This document shows, piece by piece, positions 64-35,795 of a stretch of DNA of 35,795 nucleotides. The DNA comes from Oscillospiraceae bacterium (GTDB lineage: Bacteria; Bacillota; Clostridia; Oscillospirales; Acutalibacteraceae), in assembly GCA_015066575.1 (NCBI GenBank), contig SVOD01000005.1, forward strand, positions 1-35,795. Direction: 5' to 3'. Every line of letters starts with the position of its first letter. Position 1 is the stretch's first letter. A program made the translations under genes and the position numbers. The notes under the pieces are model-generated. The model did no database searches, had not been told where the DNA came from, and worked only from the letters and a program-made list of their open reading frames with translations.

Positions 64-109
64 CAAATAAGGATTTGCGCGCTCGGAGAGCGCGACAAAT
101 CCTTATTTG
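64..109. repeat. Inverted repeat CAAATAAGGATTTG-CGCGCTC-GGA-GAGCGCG-A-CAAATCCTTATTTG (copy A of an IR family)
   Basis: Direct reading: 14-bp outer arms plus 7-bp inner arms, 3-nt loop, 1-nt bulge; overlaps the stop codon of the cupin ORF. Confidence 0.9.
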
Positions 110-453
110 TAGAGAAGCACCGTTGCGATAACCTCTGTGGTTTCTTCGCTGCGGTTGGCAATTGAGTGCGTTTGCCCGCCAAGGCAAATCGCGCTGTCGC
201 CTTCGTTGAGCGTGACCCACTGACCGTCGTCATAATAGGCGGCGGTACCTTTGGAAATGTAAAAGATTTCTTCTTCATCCACATGAGTGTGTTCACCGAT
301 AGAGCAGCCCGGCTCCAATATTATTTTTGCCAGCAGGCGGCATTTGCCGCCGATTTCTTCTTTTTCGGCGTAGTGAATGATTTTGGCGGTGCCGTCACCG
401 CCCTTCATATGCTCATTGTAAACAATTCTCAAGTCTTCTTTTCTTTTAATCAT
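103..453 (-). CDS. Small cupin-domain protein
   Basis: 116-aa ORF with cupin-like segments GCSIGEHTHVDEEEIFYISKGTAAYYDDG and GDSAICLGGQTHSIANRSEE. Confidence 0.8.
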   Translation of the reverse strand: MIKRKEDLRIVYNEHMKGGDGTAKIIHYAEKEEIGGKCRLLAKIILEPGCSIGEHTHVDEEEIFYISKGTAAYYDDGQWVTLNEGDSAICLGGQTHSIANRSEETTEVIATVLLYK

Positions 454-13652: not shown

Positions 13653-14441
13653 ATGGCACAGTTTTTATCGCTGTTTTCCGGTTCTTCCGGCAACAGCACC
13701 TATGTCGGTAACGGCAAGAGAGGCATCCTGATTGATGCGGGCAGAACCGCCAAACAAATCGCACAGGCGCTTGAGGGCAGGGAGATTGACCCTGCCGGTA
13801 TCGGCGCACTGCTGATTACCCACGAGCATGTTGACCATGCCGCCGGGGTGCGGGTTTTTGCCTCCAAATACAATGTGCCCGTCTATGCCACGGCGGGAAC
13901 TATCAAGGGTATGCGCAAAAAAGGCTTTATCGATGAAAAAACACCGGTCAAGGAGATGCCGGCGGAGCTTTACATAGAGGATATGTGCATCAGGGCATTT
14001 CCGACCTCTCATGACACACTTGAGCCTTGCGGCTTTCGCGTTTTAACCGCGGATGAGCGCAGCTTTTGCATTTGCACCGATACGGGCATATTGACCGAAG
14101 AGAGCAAAGCAGCTATGCAGGGTGCAGACTTGGTGGTGCTCGAAAGTAACCACGAACTGAATATGCTCTTAAACGGCCCTTACCCGTACCCGCTGAAAAT
14201 GCGCGTTTCCGGTGCCAAAGGGCACTTGAGCAACGATGATTGTGCCCGCCAGGCGGTCAAACTTATCGAAAGCGGCACGGCACACCTGTTTTTGGGGCAC
14301 ATCAGCCGCGAAAACAATACCCCCGATATTGCCTTTGCCGCGACGCAGTCGGCATTGCAGATAGCCGGTATGAAAGAGGAATTTGACTATACACTGGCAG
14401 TTTTGCCGCCGGAGAACACCAAAAAGGCGGTGATTTTTTAG
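13653..14441 (+). CDS. walJ: MBL-fold metallo-hydrolase, YycJ/WalJ family
   Basis: FLSLFSGSSGNSTYVGNGKRGILIDAGRTAKQI; LLITHEHVDHAAGVRVFASKY; LESNHELNMLLNGPYPYPLKMRVSGAKGHLSNDDCA. Confidence 0.9.
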   Translation: MAQFLSLFSGSSGNSTYVGNGKRGILIDAGRTAKQIAQALEGREIDPAGIGALLITHEHVDHAAGVRVFASKYNVPVYATAGTIKGMRKKGFIDEKTPVKEMPAELYIEDMCIRAFPTSHDTLEPCGFRVLTADERSFCICTDTGILTEESKAAMQGADLVVLESNHELNMLLNGPYPYPLKMRVSGAKGHLSNDDCARQAVKLIESGTAHLFLGHISRENNTPDIAFAATQSALQIAGMKEEFDYTLAVLPPENTKKAVIF

Positions 14442-14923
14442 TGCAGCGCGTTAAAATTATTTGTGTGGGCAAACTCAAAGAGCGCTATTGGAGCGCCGCT
14501 GTTGAGGAGTACCTCAAGCGCTTGAACGCCTTTTGCAAGGCGGAAATCAAGGAGATAGCGGAGGTGCGGTTGCCCGACAACCCTTCCCCGGCGCAAATAG
14601 AAGAAGGCTTGCAAAAAGAAGGGCAAAAAATCCTTGCTGAAATTCCGGCAGGCGCTTACACCTACTGCCTGCAGGTTGAGGGAAAGCAGTGCAGCAGCGA
14701 GGCGCTTGCCCGGCAAATAGCAGAGCTCGCCGTGGCAGGTAAAAGCACGGTGGTATTTATCATCGGCTCCTCTTTCGGTTTAGCTCGCAGTGTCAAACAG
14801 CGTGGCGACTGCGCGCTCTCGTTTTCCAAAATGACATTTCCGCACCAGCTGGCGCGGGTGATGCTTTTAGAGCAAATTTACCGCGCGTTTAGCATAGAAG
14901 CCGGCACAAAATATCACAAATAA
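14441..14923 (+). CDS. rlmH: 23S rRNA (pseudouridine-1915-N3) methyltransferase
   Basis: MQRVKIICVGKLKERYW; VVFIIGSSFGLARSVKQRGDCALSFSKMTFPHQLARVMLLEQIYRAFSIEAGTKYHK. Confidence 0.96.
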   Translation: MQRVKIICVGKLKERYWSAAVEEYLKRLNAFCKAEIKEIAEVRLPDNPSPAQIEEGLQKEGQKILAEIPAGAYTYCLQVEGKQCSSEALARQIAELAVAGKSTVVFIIGSSFGLARSVKQRGDCALSFSKMTFPHQLARVMLLEQIYRAFSIEAGTKYHK

Positions 14924-14959
14924 GGTTTGTCGAGCGAACAGCTCGACAAACCTTATTTG
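14917..14959. repeat. Inverted repeat CAAATAAGGTTTGTCGAGC-gaaca-GCTCGACAAACCTTATTTG (copy B)
   Basis: Perfect 19-bp arms; contains the rlmH TAA stop. Confidence 0.93.
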
Positions 14960-14960
14960 T

Positions 14961-15037
14961 CAGTTTTCAGTTTTCAGGGTTCAGTTTTCAGTTTCACCCA
15001 CCGCGTGCTATGCACGCACCGCCCTTGATAGGGCGGT
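14961..15037. repeat. Period-7 array (cagtttt)n + GCGTGC-TAT-GCACGC + ACCGCCC-ttgata-GGGCGGT hairpins
   Basis: Direct reading of cagtttt/cagtttt/cagggtt/cagtttt/cagtttc and the following stems. Confidence 0.85.
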
Positions 15038-15047
15038 TTCAAAAAAA

Positions 15048-15097
15048 GCAAGGCGTAGCCTTGCCACCACTAATTCCGCATTCCGCATTCCGCATTC
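15048..15097 (-). repeat. Composite: (GAATGCG)3 GAATTA + GTGGTG + GCAAGGC-TAC-GCCTTGC hairpin
   Basis: Reverse complement shows period-7 repeats adjacent to a 7-bp stem with a 3-nt loop. Confidence 0.88.
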
Positions 15098-15144
15098 AAA
15101 TAAGGATTTGGGAGCCCGCAAGGGGCTCCGCAAATCCTTATTTG
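15097..15144. repeat. Inverted repeat CAAATAAGGATTTG-GGAGCCC-gcaag-GGGCTCC-G-CAAATCCTTATTTG (copy C)
   Basis: Direct reading. Confidence 0.92.
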
Positions 15145-15310: not shown

Positions 15311-18300
15311 ATGAAAAAGACATTATCCTTATTATTATGTATCGCGTTGCTGTTGAGCATCGTGCCGTTTGGCGCGGTGCAGAGTGCGGCGGCAAACGGG
15401 CGCATTTACCCGGACCAGGAAGTGAGCATTTACTGCCGCTCGGCAGGCAACTGGGATGTGCGCACGTTTATTCCGGAGGAAGACGGTATTTATATTTTCT
15501 CCTCATCCGGTTCGTTAGACACCCTGGGCTATGTTGCCCTCAATGAAGGCGAAGCGCAAAATAAAGATATTAAAGCCGATGGCGGTCAGGGTGACAACTT
15601 TGCCGTGACCTATGAGATGACGGCGGGGACCACCTACTACCTCGGCTCTACCACTTTAACGGGCAAAGGCACCTATACCGTCAAAATCACGAAATTTGAG
15701 GTGGATGACGGCACCATTCACCCCATCACCTTGTCGCAATCGACCGCGGTTACCACCAATAAATCAAAAAACATTAAATTTTTCTCCATTACCCCTGCCA
15801 CTTCGGGTAAGTATATTTATCTTTCCTCGGGCAATTATGACTCGCAGGGCTATGTGTTTGATGAATTTTGGCGGCAGATTGCCTATTCGGATGTCGGCGG
15901 CGCAGCGCAGAATTTCCAAATCACCTTGGATTTGCAGGCGGGAAAAACCTATTATGTCGGCTACGCGGTCACCTCGCTGACCAACGCCACCTTTAATGTT
16001 TTGCTCTATATGAGCTGCTATATTCAAACCATATCGCTGGTGCATGGTCCGGAGAAAAACACTTATATTAAAGATATTGATGCCACACATGTTTCGGGAA
16101 CTACTTACCATGTGGATTTGAATTTGGCAGGCTTTGAATTTAAAGTTAATTACTCCAACGGCACGAGCGAAAACAGAAAGTATACCTATGGCATTCGCGG
16201 GTTGGACTGCGATCCTTCGCGCGACTTGTGGGAAGGCGAAAACGATGTGCGCTTCAGTTACATGGGAAACTATGCTTCGTTTAAAATCAATATCATGGAC
16301 AGCCCGGTTGACAGCTTGACAATGATTCAGCCGCCGGACAAAACCGTTTATTATGATGAAGATATAGAAGAAGCGCTGGATGAAACGAAAATTTTCAACA
16401 TTTCCATTTATGGAATGATTTTGCGCGCGCACTATAAAAACGGCACGACCGAAGACTTTGCGATAGAGTCACTCTACGGGCAGGAGATTGACTATTTCTT
16501 CTTCGACCACATGAGACCGGCATCGCAAATGCACTTGGGCGACAACAGTTTTACCGTTTCTTACTACGGCGCGCCCATGACCTTTACGGTCAAGTATTCT
16601 CTCAACTCCGACAACTGGCAGTATGAAGTCAACGGCGGTGAAGTCACCTTAACCAAATATATCGGTACCGACACGCAAGCTCTCATCCCCGAGGAATTAG
16701 GCGGTTACCCCGTGACCAAAATCGGTGATGAGTGCTTTAAGGATAACACCACGCTCAAGAGCGTGAAGATGACGGAGAACATTACGACAATCGACGAAAA
16801 CGCCTTCTTCGGCTGTACGGCACTTAAGGAATTGACACTGCCGGCATCCCTGACAAGCATTGGCAAGCAGGCGTGCTATGGTTTGAGAAACCTCGAAAAA
16901 CTGACTTGGAATGCGCCGAACCTGAGCATCCTCAAAGCCAACAACACCTTTGCCTATATGGGAGCGGATACGCAGAACGGCACGACAGTGGAATTCGGCT
17001 TCACCTGTCAGGCGATTCCGCAGGACTGCTTCTATAATTCGAGCAACACCTACGCGCCGCGCGTTTACAAGATTATTGTCGGCGAAAATGTTGCGACCAT
17101 CGGCAATAATGCCTTCCGCGAAATTGACAGCCTGCGCCTGGTGGAGTGGAATGCCATGCAAATCACCAACAGCATCGGCACAGCCAACAACATTTGGCTC
17201 AACAACGCGGGGCAAGGGCCCGGCACCTTTGAAGTGCATGTGGGCGAATATGTGCAGTCGCTGCCCAATAACCTCTTCTATGCGGCAACGGCGGGGCGCA
17301 GCCCGCGCATCACCAAAATGACTGTCGAGAGCAACAGCACGACCATCGGCGCCAACACCTTCCGCGCAAACAGCGATGTGCCGCTGACTTTCTACTGCCG
17401 CTACAATGAGGACAGCACCGCCAACTGTGTTTACAACTACTGTGTGAGCAATCAGTTAGACTATGTGCTGCTTGATGCGCCGGTAGACCACATCTACCTG
17501 CGCTCTCAACTGCAAAAAGATGAGTATATTATCGGCGAGGATTTGGACTTGACCGGTTTAAGTGTCTATGCGGTGTATGAAGATTTGACCGAGCAGGATG
17601 TTACCGCGAAAGTCGAGGTTAACGGCTACGATAAAACGCAAATCGGGCTCCAACAACTGACTATTTCCTACACCTTTATTGACAAGACGGTGACAGTGCT
17701 TTATGAAGTGCTTGTCACGGAAGAGCCGCTGGTGCTCGACTATGTGGAAATCACTTCCCCTGCGGAGCAGACCGAGTATTATGCCGGCGATGTCTTTAAT
17801 GACAGCGGCTTGGAGCTGACAGCGGTCTTTACCGACGGCACCCGCCAAAACGTTACCGACTTTATGATTATTTCCGGTTACGATATCAACACGCCCGGGG
17901 TGCAGACGGTTTCGGTTTCTTATACCTATGAAGGTGTTACCCGCAGCGCAACATATGATATTTTGGTTAAAGCCCTTGTGCTTACCAACCTCATTTTGCA
18001 CACCGCGCCCGGCAAAACCGACTATGTGGTCGGGGAGGAATTGAATGTGGACGGCTTAAAGGTTATCGCTGTCTACAACTCCGGCGGCCGCTTGGATGTG
18101 ACCGGCTTCTGTGATTTTTCCGGCTACGATTTAAGCAGCAAAGGCGCGCAAACCGTAACCGTTTCCTATACCGAAAACGCCGTCACCAAAACCTGCTCCT
18201 ACGGCATTACCGTGCACAATCTTTTAGACCATATCACCATAGAAACACTGCCGACCGATTTGGAATTTACCGTCGGTTCCGGCTTTACCGCCAGAGGCAT

Positions 18301-21300
18301 TGTGGTCAAAGCCACTTTCGAAAACGGCGTGCGCGATGTCAGCGATGAAGTGACTTTCTCCGGCTACGATATGGATACCGTGGGCGAGCAGACCGTGACC
18401 GTGAGCTATACGGATGGCGAGAGCACCAAAACCGCCACATACAATATCCGCGTCAATGACAAAGCGCTGCTGCGCCTGCAGTTGACCTCTGCGCCGACCG
18501 CGAAGCAGTATAAAGATGAGGCGCTGGATACCACCGGCTTAAACATCAGCGCGATTTATAATGATGGCAGCCGCGAAAATGTTGCAAGCAAGTGCTTCTT
18601 CTCCGGCTACAATATGGCGCAGACAGGTGCCCAAACCGTGACAGCGGCATACACCTTCGGCGGCAAAACGCTAATGGTAAACTTCGGTATTACCGTGTTG
18701 GAGCGCACTGCCACCGGCATAGAGATAACGTCACCGGCGAGTAAAACAAGCTACCTGGTCGGCGAAGCGCTCGATACAAGCGGTATTGCCGTTACCTTGC
18801 GCTTTGGTGATGAGAGCACCAAGCCGGTACCGACAGCGGATTTGACCTTCTCCGGCTACAACAAAATGCAGGCGGGCGCGCAGACCGTCACGGTCGGCTA
18901 TACTTATAAAGGCAGCAACTTTACGGCGACATATACCGTAACGACTACTAATTATGAAGTTTCCCTTGCGGTGACGGCACCGACCAAAACCGCGTATTAC
19001 TACGGCGATACATTAGAAACCGCCGGGATGAGCGTCACCGCCACGATGGCGGACGGCAGCACCCGCGCGCTCACCTCCGGTTACAACCTTTCGGGCTATG
19101 ATGCACACACGCTCGGCACACAAACCGTGAGTGTGGCATACCCCTGCGCGGTGACCGGCGCGGTATTGCGCGACAGCTTTGCGGTGACGGTCGCCAATTT
19201 CGAAAGCGCCATCGAGGTGGAGGCACCGACCAAGACCGATTATTTCTATGGCGACGCACTGGATGTAAGCGGCATGGCAGCCATTTTGACCATGGCGGAC
19301 GGTTCCCGCCGCCAGGCGGAGCCCGGCGCCCTGCAGGTGAGCGGCTACAATGCGCAGGTGCTCGGCGAGCAGACCGTCACGGTCAGCTACACCGGCGCGA
19401 AAGGCAATGTGCTTTCCGACACCTTCCGGGTGACGGTCGCAAACTTTGAAACAGCTTTAGATGTAACCGCGCCGACGAAGACAACCTATTACTACGGCGA
19501 AGCGCTGAGCCTTGCGGGCTTGAGCGCCAAAGCCGTGATGGCAGATGGGAGCGAACGCGCCCTGACACCGGAAGAATACACCCTTTCCGCTTTTGATAAC
19601 ACCCGCGTGGGCAGTCAGCAAATCACTTTGAGCACTGTCAGCGCGAAAGGAGAGCCCCTCAGCGGCAGCTTTACGGTGAATGTTGTCAACTATGAAACGA
19701 CACTAACAGTGACCGCTCCGACCAAGACCAACTATTTCTATGGCGAGGCACTCAACACCGCCGGTATGAGCGGAACCGTCCGCTGGGCAGACGGCAGCGA
19801 AACGGTTTTGTTGCTCGAGCAGTTGCGCATTAGCGGCTACAATCCGCAGGTGCTTGGCGAGCAGAGTGTCACGGTCAGTTACACCACTGTTAAGGGCGGC
19901 ACCCTGCAAGCGACCTTTACCGTGAGCGTACAAAACTTTGAAACGGCGTTGCACATTTCCCCGCCGCAAAAGAGAGATTATTACTACGGCGAGGAGTTGG
20001 AACTTGCCGGCTTGAGCGGTGTGCTGACAATGGCGGATGGCAGTGAACAGAGCGCAGCGCCTGCCGATTTGCAAGTCGGCAGCTTTGACCCGCTGACAAC
20101 GGGTGTGCAGACCGTTACGGTTTCGTATGTGACAGCGAAGGGCGAAGTGCTCAGCGACAGTTTTACCGTTTTGGTCGTTAACTACGCAACCGCCCTGGCG
20201 GTCAGTGCGCCGACCAAGACCACTTACGAATACGGTGAGCCCTTAGATACCGCCGGTATGACCGCGGCGCTCACTTGGGCAAACGGCAGCAGTACACAGG
20301 TTGCTCCCGCGGCGCTGACGGTTACCGGCTACTCCGCCACACAGGTGGGGCAGCAGAGTATCAGCGTGAGCTACACCAATGTCAAGGGCGAAGTGCTCAG
20401 CGACAGCTTTAGTGTAACGGTGACCAACTACGAAACCGGCATTAGCGTTACCCCGCCGGCGCGCACCGAATACTACTTGGGCGAAGAGCTTAATACCGCC
20501 GGCATGGTGGTCAAAGCCACGATGGCGGACGGCGCGCAAAAAACTCTATCCGAAGATGAAATCACCCTGACGGGTTATGATAAGGACACCCTCGGTGAAC
20601 AGAGCGTGACAGTCAGCTACACCTCCTCGAAAGGCACTGTGTTTACGGATAGCTTTACGGTCACTGTCAGCAATTTTGCGACAGGGTTGAATGTCATCCC
20701 GCCCACCAAAGTGGTGTATTTCTACGGCGAGAGCCTGAATACCTCCGGCATTAGCGCTACATTGACCTCGGCAGCCGGCGAAAGCACGCCGATTGACCCC
20801 TCGAAACTGCGCTACAGCGGCTACAATTCCCGCAAGCTCGGCGAGCAAACCATCACCGTTTCCTACACTTCCGAGACCGGTGAAGTGCTCAAAGATACCT
20901 TTAAAGTCATTGTCAATAACTATGAAAAATCCATTACCGTCACCCCGCCGACCAAGACCGACTATTACTACGGCGAGAGCCTGGATACTGCCGGTTTGGG
21001 CGCAACGGCGCTTATGGCGGATAACACGACAATGGAACTCAATCCCGATTCCTTGATTGTGTTCGGCTACTCTTCCACAAAGCTCGGCAGCCAAAATGTG
21101 AGCGTGATGTATAAGAGCGCGAAAAACACCACCTTAAGCGGCAGCTTCACGGTGAGGGTGAGCAACTACGAAAGTGCTTTATCGATTGTCACCGCGCCCG
21201 ACAAGACCGATTACTACTACGGCGAGGATTTGGATGTGACCGGTTTGAGCGCCAACCTTATTATGGCAAACGGCGCCACCGAGGCCGCCGCAAGCAGCGC

Positions 21301-21865
21301 GCTGAGCATTGCGGCATTTAACCCGCAGCGCCTGGGCAGGCAGACCGTAACCGTCAACTACACCAATGTCAAGGGCGAGGTACTCAGCGATACCTTTACC
21401 GTGATGGTCAATAACTTCCCAACGGTGTTAACGCTTTCCGGCGACTACCCGACCGAGTTTACGCAGGGCGACAGTTTTGACAGTACCGGCTTAAAAGCGC
21501 TCGCGCAGTATGCCGACGGCAGCCGCCACGATGTGAGCGCGGCAGTCACCTTCTCGGGCTACGATATGGAGAGTATCGGCACGCAGACCGTCACCGTCAC
21601 TTACAGTGAGGGTGAAAAACAGGTCAGCGCAAGCTATGAAATCACTGTTAAGAAATATGAGAGCGAAAAACAGCGCGCCGATGTCAATGAGGACGGCTAC
21701 ATCGACTTTTCTGATGTTTCCATTGTTATTGCAAGCGCGAACTACGGTTTTAACACAGCACAGGCGGCAAATGGGCGCGCCGATGCCGACCGCAACGGTG
21801 TGATCAATGTTAATGATGTGAACCTGCTGCTTAAAGCGGAAAATTACGGACAAATAGTCGGCTGA
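15311..21865 (+). CDS. Giant secreted protein: BspA-type LRR segment, ~17 Ig-like repeats, C-terminal type I dockerin-like domain
   Basis: Signal peptide MKKTLSLLLCIALLLSIVPFGAVQSAAA; LRR_5-like LKSVKMTENITTIDENAFFGCTALKELTLPASLTSIGKQAC; repeats YYYGE.L.TAGM...ADGS...SGY....LG.QTVTVSYT; DVNEDGYIDFSDVSIVIASANYG...ADADRNGVINVNDVNLLLKAENYG. Confidence 0.92.
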   Translation: MKKTLSLLLCIALLLSIVPFGAVQSAAANGRIYPDQEVSIYCRSAGNWDVRTFIPEEDGIYIFSSSGSLDTLGYVALNEGEAQNKDIKADGGQGDNFAVTYEMTAGTTYYLGSTTLTGKGTYTVKITKFEVDDGTIHPITLSQSTAVTTNKSKNIKFFSITPATSGKYIYLSSGNYDSQGYVFDEFWRQIAYSDVGGAAQNFQITLDLQAGKTYYVGYAVTSLTNATFNVLLYMSCYIQTISLVHGPEKNTYIKDIDATHVSGTTYHVDLNLAGFEFKVNYSNGTSENRKYTYGIRGLDCDPSRDLWEGENDVRFSYMGNYASFKINIMDSPVDSLTMIQPPDKTVYYDEDIEEALDETKIFNISIYGMILRAHYKNGTTEDFAIESLYGQEIDYFFFDHMRPASQMHLGDNSFTVSYYGAPMTFTVKYSLNSDNWQYEVNGGEVTLTKYIGTDTQALIPEELGGYPVTKIGDECFKDNTTLKSVKMTENITTIDENAFFGCTALKELTLPASLTSIGKQACYGLRNLEKLTWNAPNLSILKANNTFAYMGADTQNGTTVEFGFTCQAIPQDCFYNSSNTYAPRVYKIIVGENVATIGNNAFREIDSLRLVEWNAMQITNSIGTANNIWLNNAGQGPGTFEVHVGEYVQSLPNNLFYAATAGRSPRITKMTVESNSTTIGANTFRANSDVPLTFYCRYNEDSTANCVYNYCVSNQLDYVLLDAPVDHIYLRSQLQKDEYIIGEDLDLTGLSVYAVYEDLTEQDVTAKVEVNGYDKTQIGLQQLTISYTFIDKTVTVLYEVLVTEEPLVLDYVEITSPAEQTEYYAGDVFNDSGLELTAVFTDGTRQNVTDFMIISGYDINTPGVQTVSVSYTYEGVTRSATYDILVKALVLTNLILHTAPGKTDYVVGEELNVDGLKVIAVYNSGGRLDVTGFCDFSGYDLSSKGAQTVTVSYTENAVTKTCSYGITVHNLLDHITIETLPTDLEFTVGSGFTARGIVVKATFENGVRDVSDEVTFSGYDMDTVGEQTVTVSYTDGESTKTATYNIRVNDKALLRLQLTSAPTAKQYKDEALDTTGLNISAIYNDGSRENVASKCFFSGYNMAQTGAQTVTAAYTFGGKTLMVNFGITVLERTATGIEITSPASKTSYLVGEALDTSGIAVTLRFGDESTKPVPTADLTFSGYNKMQAGAQTVTVGYTYKGSNFTATYTVTTTNYEVSLAVTAPTKTAYYYGDTLETAGMSVTATMADGSTRALTSGYNLSGYDAHTLGTQTVSVAYPCAVTGAVLRDSFAVTVANFESAIEVEAPTKTDYFYGDALDVSGMAAILTMADGSRRQAEPGALQVSGYNAQVLGEQTVTVSYTGAKGNVLSDTFRVTVANFETALDVTAPTKTTYYYGEALSLAGLSAKAVMADGSERALTPEEYTLSAFDNTRVGSQQITLSTVSAKGEPLSGSFTVNVVNYETTLTVTAPTKTNYFYGEALNTAGMSGTVRWADGSETVLLLEQLRISGYNPQVLGEQSVTVSYTTVKGGTLQATFTVSVQNFETALHISPPQKRDYYYGEELELAGLSGVLTMADGSEQSAAPADLQVGSFDPLTTGVQTVTVSYVTAKGEVLSDSFTVLVVNYATALAVSAPTKTTYEYGEPLDTAGMTAALTWANGSSTQVAPAALTVTGYSATQVGQQSISVSYTNVKGEVLSDSFSVTVTNYETGISVTPPARTEYYLGEELNTAGMVVKATMADGAQKTLSEDEITLTGYDKDTLGEQSVTVSYTSSKGTVFTDSFTVTVSNFATGLNVIPPTKVVYFYGESLNTSGISATLTSAAGESTPIDPSKLRYSGYNSRKLGEQTITVSYTSETGEVLKDTFKVIVNNYEKSITVTPPTKTDYYYGESLDTAGLGATALMADNTTMELNPDSLIVFGYSSTKLGSQNVSVMYKSAKNTTLSGSFTVRVSNYESALSIVTAPDKTDYYYGEDLDVTGLSANLIMANGATEAAASSALSIAAFNPQRLGRQTVTVNYTNVKGEVLSDTFTVMVNNFPTVLTLSGDYPTEFTQGDSFDSTGLKALAQYADGSRHDVSAAVTFSGYDMESIGTQTVTVTYSEGEKQVSASYEITVKKYESEKQRADVNEDGYIDFSDVSIVIASANYGFNTAQAANGRADADRNGVINVNDVNLLLKAENYGQIVG

Positions 21866-31428: not shown

Positions 31429-31481
31429 GAAAGGGGACGGTTCTATTTCTCGCAAAGCAAGAAGCAGAACCGTCCCCTTTC
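31429..31481. repeat. Perfect 16-bp inverted repeat GAAAGGGGACGGTTCT...AGAACCGTCCCCTTTC (REP-like or terminator)
   Basis: Direct reading. Confidence 0.85.
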
Positions 31482-31505: not shown

Positions 31506-31559
31506 AATGCGGAATGCGGAGTGCGGAATTCAGAATTAAATGTGGCGCGCACAGCGCGC
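31506..31559 (+). repeat. Composite: period-7 array (aatgcgg/aatgcgg/agtgcgg/aattcag/aattaaa) + TGTG + GCGCGC-ACA-GCGCGC hairpin
   Basis: Direct reading. Confidence 0.87.
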
Positions 31560-31664
31560 TTTCTTTTTTTATTCCCGATTTTTCGATAGTTGTCGCAAAG
31601 GCTTTTCTGTTGCATAAATTTGCGCTACAATGATATAATAGAGCCAAAACGAAAGGGTAAAAAA

Positions 31665-33891: not shown

Positions 33892-33934
33892 AAAAAGGGA
33901 CGCTTCTTGTTTACACATAGAAACGTCCCTTTTT
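33892..33934. terminator. Inverted repeat/terminator AAAAAGGGACG...CGTCCCTTTTT
   Basis: Direct reading; T-tract on both strands. Confidence 0.75.
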
Positions 33935-34749: not shown

Positions 34750-34830
34750 AATGTTTTCTCCCTTTCGATGAATGTAACCATTCTCTCAAACAGGAGTGAA
34801 TTGGAAATAAAGATTGTTTAAACAGTTTGT

Positions 34831-34875
34831 AAATAAGGATTTGTCGCGCTCTCAGAGCGCGCAAATCCTTGTTTG
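34831..34875. repeat. Inverted repeat AAATAAGGATTTG-T-CGCGCTC-TCA-GAGCGCG-CAAATCCTTGTTTG (copy D)
   Basis: Direct reading; nearly identical to copy A with a different loop. Confidence 0.9.
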
Positions 34876-34880
34876 TGCAG

Positions 34881-34931
34881 TCAGCGGTCAGCGGTCAGCA
34901 GTTAGCGAATGGTGGCGTTGCTATGCAACGC
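34881..34931 (+). repeat. Composite: period-7 array (tcagcgg/tcagcgg/tcagcag/ttagcga) + GGTG + GCGTTGC-TAT-GCAACGC hairpin
   Basis: Direct reading. Confidence 0.87.
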
Positions 34932-34950
34932 ATTTAAATCGGGTGCGGGT

Positions 34951-35010
34951 GACTCCCTGCAGTGCAGGGAGATGTCACAAAGTGACAGAGGGTACGGGCT
35001 CCCGTCAGGA
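34951..35010. mobile_element. 60-bp hairpin-rich insertion in dispersed repeat TCGGGTGCGGGTG^TCCCGCC
   Basis: Uninterrupted versions at the window start and (minus strand) 4721-4740; hairpins CTCCCTGC-AGT-GCAGGGAG and TGTCAC-AAA-GTGACA. Confidence 0.65.
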
Positions 35011-35027
35011 GTCCCGCCCTCGGCTGG

Positions 35028-35061
35028 CTGCCGACTGCCGGCTGCCGACTGCTGAGCGACA
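35028..35061. repeat. Period-7 array gccgact/gccggct/gccgact/gctgagc
   Basis: Direct reading. Confidence 0.75.
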
Positions 35062-35078
35062 GCCCGACAAATCCTTTA

Positions 35079-35136
35079 GCCGAGCAATCGAAGATTGCGA
35101 ACGCCAAGGTTCTGAGCCTGCGGCTCAGGTTCTTAT
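35079..35136. mobile_element. 58-bp double-hairpin insertion element, copy 2
   Basis: Same length and boundaries as 691-748; hairpins GCAATC-GAA-GATTGC and CTGAGCC-TGC-GGCTCAG; interrupts caaatcctt^atttgtcg of the IR family. Confidence 0.75.
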
Positions 35137-35795
35137 TTGTCGTTAACCTGCGCGGTCAGCGAGCACTCAAACGCGTGGCTTAAATACCTTTTCATTTCCA
35201 CGCGGCGCTCGCCCTTGGGGAAGCGGTAGGTTTTTTCAAAAAAATCGCGCGCGGTTTCGCTTTCGTAAAAGGCGAGCGCGATGGCGGCGCTCCCTGCCGA
35301 AAAAGCGGTGCTACACGCACCTTTTTGGGTAAAATGCGGGCTGATGCTGTCACCTTGCAGCACCAAAAGCGCGGTGCTTTTGCAGGGGGATACCGCGGCA
35401 CAGCTGCACAGTAATTCTTCTGCGCTTTCCGCCTGTTCCGGGGTAGCGATATAGTAGGCGCAGCCGCCAAACACAATTTGCGGCAGAGCGCCGGTGTAAT
35501 CGCTCTGCGCTTTAGCGGCAAGTGAAAGGCGCACAAGCGAATTTTGCGCCTCTAAAGTGGCGCTCATCGGCGAAGCGATGCCGCTTACGGAGATTTGAAA
35601 ACTACCGCTCCCCTCACTTTTTTTGCCGAGATATTTGCCGAAACACAGCGCGCAGTCCGCACTGAAGAAGTCCCCGGTGCATTCACAGCGGGGAATGGCT
35701 ATTTCGGTGCTGCGCACAAAGCCTGCCTGCACGCTCATCGGCGCACCTTTAATGATTTCGGCACTGCTTTTTTCGATATTGTCGGTGCCGACACC
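35133..35795 (-). CDS. Hypothetical protein, 5' end beyond the window; weak resemblance to a diaminopimelate-epimerase-like fold
   Basis: Open reading continues to the window edge (GVGTDNIEKSSAEIIKGAPMSVQAG...); CALCFGKYLG and ACSTAFSAGSAAIALAF loosely resemble DapF Cys motifs; guess only. Confidence 0.4.
   Translation of the reverse strand, partial: GVGTDNIEKSSAEIIKGAPMSVQAGFVRSTEIAIPRCECTGDFFSADCALCFGKYLGKKSEGSGSFQISVSGIASPMSATLEAQNSLVRLSLAAKAQSDYTGALPQIVFGGCAYYIATPEQAESAEELLCSCAAVSPCKSTALLVLQGDSISPHFTQKGACSTAFSAGSAAIALAFYESETARDFFEKTYRFPKGERRVEMKRYLSHAFECSLTAQVNDK

Follow-up and report, generated by a model that had tools for sequence, protein, structure and literature searches.

Modular fold-back repeat units run between functional edges in the intergenic spacers of an Oscillospiraceae genus

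Introduction

Several inverted repeats in one contig of a draft Oscillospiraceae genome coincide with the ends of neighboring genes and provide their stop codons. This raises the question of whether such repeats seek out gene 3' ends, serve as 3'-end processing signals, or meet stop codons as one outcome of a more general mode of placement. The contig (SVOD01000005.1 of GCA_015066575.1; C40) was analyzed over its whole length of 35,795 nucleotides, referred to here as the window, and is one of the 181 contigs of a 2.2 Mb draft genome (G000).

Intergenic arrays of heptanucleotide repeats are known from cyanobacteria as STRRs. Among small dispersed repeats, BOX, REP/BIME, ERIC, YPAL, Correia, and RUP elements have their size, fold-back form, and intergenic location in common with the units described below (PMC3049150, PMC3733652, PMC2229807, PMC10969869). 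BOX elements are composed of boxA, boxB, and boxC, with target duplications and conserved module sequences (PMC3049150), and some of the ERIC/RU-1, YPAL/RU-2, Correia/NEMIS, and RUP repeats carry stop codons in several frames (PMC2229807). In Beggiatoaceae, 13 sets of the heptamer TAACTGA overlap the upstream stop codon, which was explained as tolerated insertion at gene ends (PMC4679880).

Methods

Relatives of the host were gathered through SecA from Ruminococcaceae/Oscillospiraceae and other Clostridia, many of them being rumen and gut MAGs. The genome comparison set comprised seven members of the host genus (G000 to G006), a group of Clostridia from gut and rumen, and 53 other genomes of the family and order. 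The draft MAG assemblies are broken at the unit repeats. Contigs starting or ending within approximately 100 bases of a unit tip were common in G000 (e.g., C8, C13, C25, C40, and C63), so the unit repeats limit short-read assembly in this genus.

Placement was assessed in approximately 0.73 Mb of the host genome, about a third of it and 83% coding, in which genes were called with a simple purpose-written gene caller. Tips were counted only if their outer flanks were unique, with repeats filtered through 12-base words, and 135 tips were kept after five spurious in-gene matches were dropped. The distance d to the adjoining gene's end was counted starting at the C of CAAATAAGG.

Results

The hairpins reported from the sequence-only reading were found at 64-109, 14917-14959, 15097-15144, and 34830-34875, together with a degenerate copy at approximately 35068-35145. 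Their arm matched the window nine times compared to 0.9 expected matches, a number reached in 0 of 100 shuffles, and CAAATAAGGNTTTG occurred 183 times across the host genome while its reversed control was absent. The reading had treated these hairpins as separate copies of an element; they proved instead to be the ends of composite units. The hairpins at 14917-14959 and 15097-15144 are the two ends of a single complete unit of 228 bp (unit 2, 14917-15144), in which the left tip is followed by a TCAGTTT array (14960-14994) and GC hairpins, and an ATTCCGC array (15073-15097) leads into the right tip. Likewise, the hairpin at 34830-34875 and the supposed half copy are the two ends of unit 3 (34830-35145), with a GTCAGCG array at 34880-34907, a CTGCCGA array at 35028-35052, and a degenerate right end from approximately 35068 to 35145. 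The hairpin at 64-109 is the far end of unit 1 (1-109), which is cut by the contig end and retains a body (CGGGTGCGGGTGTCCCGCCC), a TTAGC-type array, and this right tip.

Two further loci held unit material. Unit 4 (1893-2041) is degenerate and lies directly after a terminator-like hairpin downstream of the 5S rRNA gene. Its left hairpin (1893-1918) lacks CAAATAAGG and is followed by an AATTCGG array (1919-1950) and a right tip hairpin (2007-2041), after which comes a promoter-like region. Partial material at 31506-31575 consists of an AATGCGG array, then a GC hairpin and a T-run, with no tip of the type termed TIR1 (CAAATAAGGATTTG). Other inverted repeats lie in intergenic DNA at 31429-31481 (beginning GAAAGGGGACGGTTCT) and 33892-33934 (beginning AAAAAGGGACGCTTCT) and possibly represent separate repeat families. 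It was also noted that the gene directly downstream of unit 2 (15311-21865) encodes a surface protein of 2184 residues with 17 Ig-like (Big_3) domains, leucine-rich repeats, and a C-terminal dockerin domain.

The three stop codons attributed to the repeats were all confirmed. The cupin gene (103-453, minus strand) ends in TAC AAA TAA, its stop being the complement of 103-105 and supplied by the unit 1 tip; rlmH (14441-14923, plus strand) ends in CAC AAA TAA, with the stop at 14921-14923 within the left tip of unit 2; and the minus-strand gene at 35133-35738 ends in GAC AAA TAA, with the complement of 35133-35135 coming from the right tip of unit 3. RlmH is not truncated, in agreement with the sequence-only reading, and an ortholog (L091) likewise ends in YHK, there with CAC AAG TAA.

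The composite anatomy was seen in approximately 38 units within the 0.73 Mb sample. Each unit, mostly 190-360 bp long, consists of a hairpin, a period-7 tandem array, GC hairpins (often GGGCGGGACACCCGCACCCGAT), an inverse array, and a second hairpin. The tip hairpins are laid out as ACAAATAAGGATTTG, a core, and CAAATCCTTATTTG. The tips CAAATAAGG...CCTTATTTG form terminal inverted repeats of the MITE type, and the units are short with no gene inside. Heptamers in the arrays include AGTGTTC, TTAGCGG, GGAATGC, GGAGTGT, AGTGAAT, TCAGTTT, CAGTCGG, and others, and the second array is the reverse complement in kind of the first. Period-7 arrays occurred at 281 per Mb, whereas arrays with periods of 6 and 8 reached 1.4 and 18 per Mb, respectively; those of period 7 were approximately 200 times denser between genes than within genes. 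They are thus intergenic period-7 tandem repeats of the STRR/LSSR type, represented in the window by TCAGTTT, ATTCCGC, GTCAGCG, and CTGCCGA. The organization of end hairpins around variable arrays and body is also modular in the manner of BOX elements, a resemblance in kind only.

The claim that pairing rather than sequence is conserved in the hairpins held for the inner stem, with 6-8 perfectly paired inner positions in 67 of 105 hairpins across several different core types. For the outer arms, strong covariation was not borne out: 21 positions were changed in both arms and still paired, compared to 75 that were changed in one arm or unpaired. Because the cores fall into a limited set of recurring types, the paired change of the inner stem is real but cassette-like. 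Instead of RNA selection, such recurring paired cores may reflect fold-back copying or the copying of one unit onto another.

We then compared the end types across genomes. TIR1 was matched 179, 59, 95, and 140 times in G000, G002, G004, and G006, respectively, not at all in G001, G003, and G005, and only 0-2 times in each of the 53 genomes outside the genus. A second tip, TIR2 (AAATTCTAATTTAG), was found 121 times in G001 and 30 times in G005, with at most one match in any TIR1 genome. Both tips share the form xAAAT-N4-ATTTx' (CAAAT-AAGG-ATTTG in TIR1 and TAAAT-TCTA-ATTTA in TIR2), and a unit body motif was present in all seven genus members (38, 24, 10, 2, 28, 10, and 34 matches in G000 to G006) and absent from 53 of 53 other genomes of the family and order. 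The shared form and the body motif point to one family with exchangeable ends. G005, which carries TIR2, is 82-84% identical to the TIR1 species compared to 76% to G001 over approximately 460-590 residues of short C-terminal segments, so the end type may not follow the species tree. A decayed TIR1-like hairpin (beginning GACAAATAGGAATTTGTCGAGG) was observed at one gene end (L250) of G001, a genome without intact TIR1 copies.

Within the 0.73 Mb sample, 0 of the 135 tips lay inside coding sequence. For the 67 tips that face a gene 3' end, d was exactly 7 in 29, where the TAA of C-AAA-TAA is the stop codon, and in 12 others the stop abuts or overlaps the tip. At these 67 tips neither of the other two frames is used by a gene reading into the unit, and the interval from 6 to 16 nt past a stop is free of 3'-facing tips. 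When tips within 60 nt of a gene 3' end were considered, 41 of 57 (72%) were at the stop, compared to 16% under a null in which any viable spacer position is equally likely (p ~1e-20, to be read as an order of magnitude only since the scoring zone of -5 to 7 was picked after the distribution was seen). The stop excess might in part reflect tight native spacing, which lies outside this null model. The association with stop codons therefore survived the genome-wide test that the sequence-only reading had put forward as its refutation. Its statement that tips supply the stop without truncating the protein extends to the 29 of 67 tips. It also covers rlmH and the gene at 35133, two cases kept out of that count by the degeneracy of their arms.

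Other gene-flanking signals were met in a similar manner. Nineteen 3'-facing tips lie 17-103 nt past the stop, and 15 of them follow a terminator compared to 0.3 expected from shuffles; in 11 of the 19 the terminator T-run ends within 6 nt of the tip. Gene 5' ends were faced by 71-73 tips and 3' ends by 64-67. Sixteen of the 5'-facing tips immediately precede the Shine-Dalgarno site, at 10-20 nt ahead of the start codon, while none was found 21-39 nt ahead of it. Among 41 tips at 36-200 nt from the start, a promoter-like site follows in 28 compared to 7.6 in shuffles, and the -35 hexamer has a median distance of 9 nt from the 5'-facing tip compared to 34 nt in shuffles. Units thus span the spacers from one functional edge to the next. 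Tips face the two kinds of gene ends in near-equal numbers, so the 3' end is not what is targeted, and since -35 boxes and Shine-Dalgarno sites are abutted in the same exact way, the fit to stops is one case of a general edge-to-edge fit. The proposal of a site-selective mobile element accordingly stands for a dispersed, mobile-looking family but not for selective targeting of gene 3' ends, and the same two observations leave a dedicated stop and 3'-processing module unsupported.

Orthologs of tip-stopped genes were found in five genus members, and in those without a unit the C-terminus of the protein is displaced by no more than a few residues. One locus (L068) reads ..QNSCF* without the unit and ..QNSCF-DK* with it, a second (L054) reads LFEI* or LFRI* without and LFHI-DK* with it, and the native end at a third (L061) is VK*. 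At another (L049), the G003 orthologs overlap (ATGA), compared to G000, in which a 243 bp unit lies between the genes. The same gene end held a TIR end in 11 of 17 cases in G006, 6 of 14 in G004, 0 of 11 in G003, and 5 of 9 in G001. The baseline for G001, taken from contigs that had been selected for TIR2, was 14 of 214 long ORFs. TIR2 tips of G001 also meet stops, with the TAA formed five times at the first bases of TAAATTC.

At two loci (L033 and L062), the species agree closely in where the left and right boundaries lie, and the contents are unrelated cassettes. Compared to G005, 47 nt are replaced by 291 at L055, and compared to G006, 35 nt are replaced by 234 at L061. Some of the apparently empty spacers (L055 in G005 and L033 in G006) look like unit remnants, so the order of native spacer followed by cassette is tentative. 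At the end of the L044 gene in G006 (L224), GACAAATAAGAATTTTTCGAAAAAA is followed by a terminator and looks like a tip left after unit loss.

Discussion

The units probably constitute a genus-specific, non-autonomous, modular fold-back repeat that behaves as an exchangeable cassette occupying intergenic spacers. The best reading is that of a modular family akin to MITE, BIME, and BOX elements, in which whole spacers are replaced edge to edge and stop supply follows as a consequence. The supply of stop codons is real and frequent, and is best explained as one outcome of edge-to-edge placement. A unit would reach from the final functional base of one neighbor to the first of the next, with the native spacer replaced; that exact signals are kept on both sides while the native spacer is missing favors cassette replacement followed by purifying selection. 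For a tip joined at the stop or inside the final codon, a short, harmless ending would result only in the C-AAA-TAA (or TAA-ATTC) frame, and selection would keep that frame because the others would add a long tail. The cost of a junction at the last codon in the C-AAA-TAA frame would be one to three altered residues. Cassettes and tips may be exchanged by copying between units, through template switching or gene conversion, or by a putative trans-acting transposase. Since neither a transposase nor a recent insertion distinguishing very close strains came to light, the case for mobility and replacement is inferred from comparisons of species at approximately 73-88% protein identity.

We considered whether a classical MITE family, mobilized in trans by a DDE transposase and inserted nearly at random, could leave the same pattern once purifying selection had acted, the fit to stops being survivorship. 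Terminal inverted repeats, no coding capacity, high copy number, intergenic placement, and a genus-limited expansion are all consistent with this, and TIR2 begins with TA like many MITEs. However, there was no target-site duplication at 34 complete units, where direct repeats at the tips occurred as often as expected from shuffling for each length between 2 and 9, and no autonomous long copy or gene was found between facing tips in the 0.73 Mb. Random survivorship also predicts 16% of tips at the stop together with residual spacers, whereas 72% and almost no residual spacer were observed. We therefore regard this explanation as rather unlikely.

The reading given earlier, in which a mobile element or integration system actively recognizes stop codons or gene 3' ends, is considerably less plausible again. 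The 29 of 67 tips that provide the stop and the 12 that abut or overlap it would be expected of such a system, as would gene ends occupied in several species by different cassettes with slightly shifted junctions, and native ends sometimes already resemble AAATAA (rlmH, L061, and L032). However, 5' ends are faced equally often, -35 boxes and Shine-Dalgarno sites are abutted as tightly, and the empty stop contexts (TTT TAA, ATT TGA, ATT TAG, and GCT TGA) have only being stops in common.

The transcribed unit would place a strong hairpin right after the stop which, by analogy with REP, could stabilize the upstream message or slow termination. A functional RNA kept by the host for 3'-end stabilization, attenuation, or ribosome stalling is nevertheless the least probable explanation, since the very stable fold (unit 2, -107.4 kcal/mol, z -12.7), the 41 hairpins directly at a stop, and the architecture retained while sequence is exchanged are set against half of the tips lying upstream of promoters or Shine-Dalgarno sites (those before promoters being outside the mRNA of the downstream gene), orthologs that do without units in G003 (0 of 11) and mostly in G005, and copy numbers that vary strongly between sister species. 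Tip hairpins were also rejected as intrinsic terminators, as most lack a U-tract of their own; the terminator scan returned a single T-rich tail, which arises from the rlmH flank and follows a tip hairpin on the minus strand, and canonical terminators lie in some unit bodies or outside the tips. At the Rfam 15 gathering threshold, covariance models matched no unit of the window, which yielded only a 5S rRNA and a tRNA.

Returning to the exchangeable cassettes, these look like an unusual variant of the known small bacterial intergenic repeats. Like the units, BOX elements of Streptococcus pneumoniae are intergenic repeats of Firmicutes with a modular build and a comparable size; constant ends enclose a variable middle, long RNA stem-loops are predicted, and there are about 100 copies (PMC3049150). 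In contrast to BOX, the units have no detected duplications, separate hairpins at both ends, an inverse heptamer middle, and ends that differ between sister species. Paired inverted palindromes joined by linkers, high copy number, and a frequent location directly after genes are shared with REP/BIME (PMC3733652). In contrast, unit tips abut promoters and Shine-Dalgarno sites as well, and the GTAG or CGTC tetranucleotide tag was absent from the palindrome foot (consensus tip TCGACAAATAAGG, from base counts outside the 135 tips). A RAYT or IS200 transposase was rejected as the mover, Y1 transposases (PF01797) being matched 2, 4, 3, 1, 3, 0, and 1 times in G000 to G006, unrelated to TIR1 or TIR2 copy number. 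ERIC/RU-1, YPAL/RU-2, Correia/NEMIS, and RUP are similarly non-autonomous, intergenic fold-back repeats with terminal inverted repeats (PMC2229807), but have TA or variable target duplications and one constant sequence, whereas the units have no duplication and are mosaic. The Beggiatoaceae TAACTGA sets (PMC4679880) are also intergenic period-7 arrays, though bare direct repeats of one heptamer; compared to heptamer arrays elsewhere, the units carry many different heptamers in inverse pairs inside a hairpin-capped unit. In the part of the literature covered, no account was found of inverse heptamer cassettes that are capped by hairpins, differ in their ends between species, and fit edge to edge between signals, and nothing relevant was found on such units in ruminococci.

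A stronger statement is possible, though we hold it only tentatively: that fold-back cassettes replace whole spacers genus-wide up to the last functional base, change their ends by species, and have a stop built into both tip types, through a copying mechanism not yet described. Such a system would represent a distinct mode of non-coding DNA turnover. If the cassette reading is right, much intergenic DNA of these bacteria would consist of exchangeable units with edges that locate stops, terminators, ribosome-binding sites, and -35 boxes to nearly the exact base, so that the units would be natural markers of regulatory boundaries in uncultured genomes. They would also offer a test case for the spread of small repeats without target duplications. 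The last residues of many proteins (..DK, ..K) would come from a repeat, and the repeats would switch ends between sister species while the sites are kept.

Pairs of inverse heptamer arrays of unrelated sequence were additionally observed in other genera of the order, at L123 (5605-5881), L137 (29-154), and L150 (3552-3740), which suggests that the unit architecture is wider than this genus.
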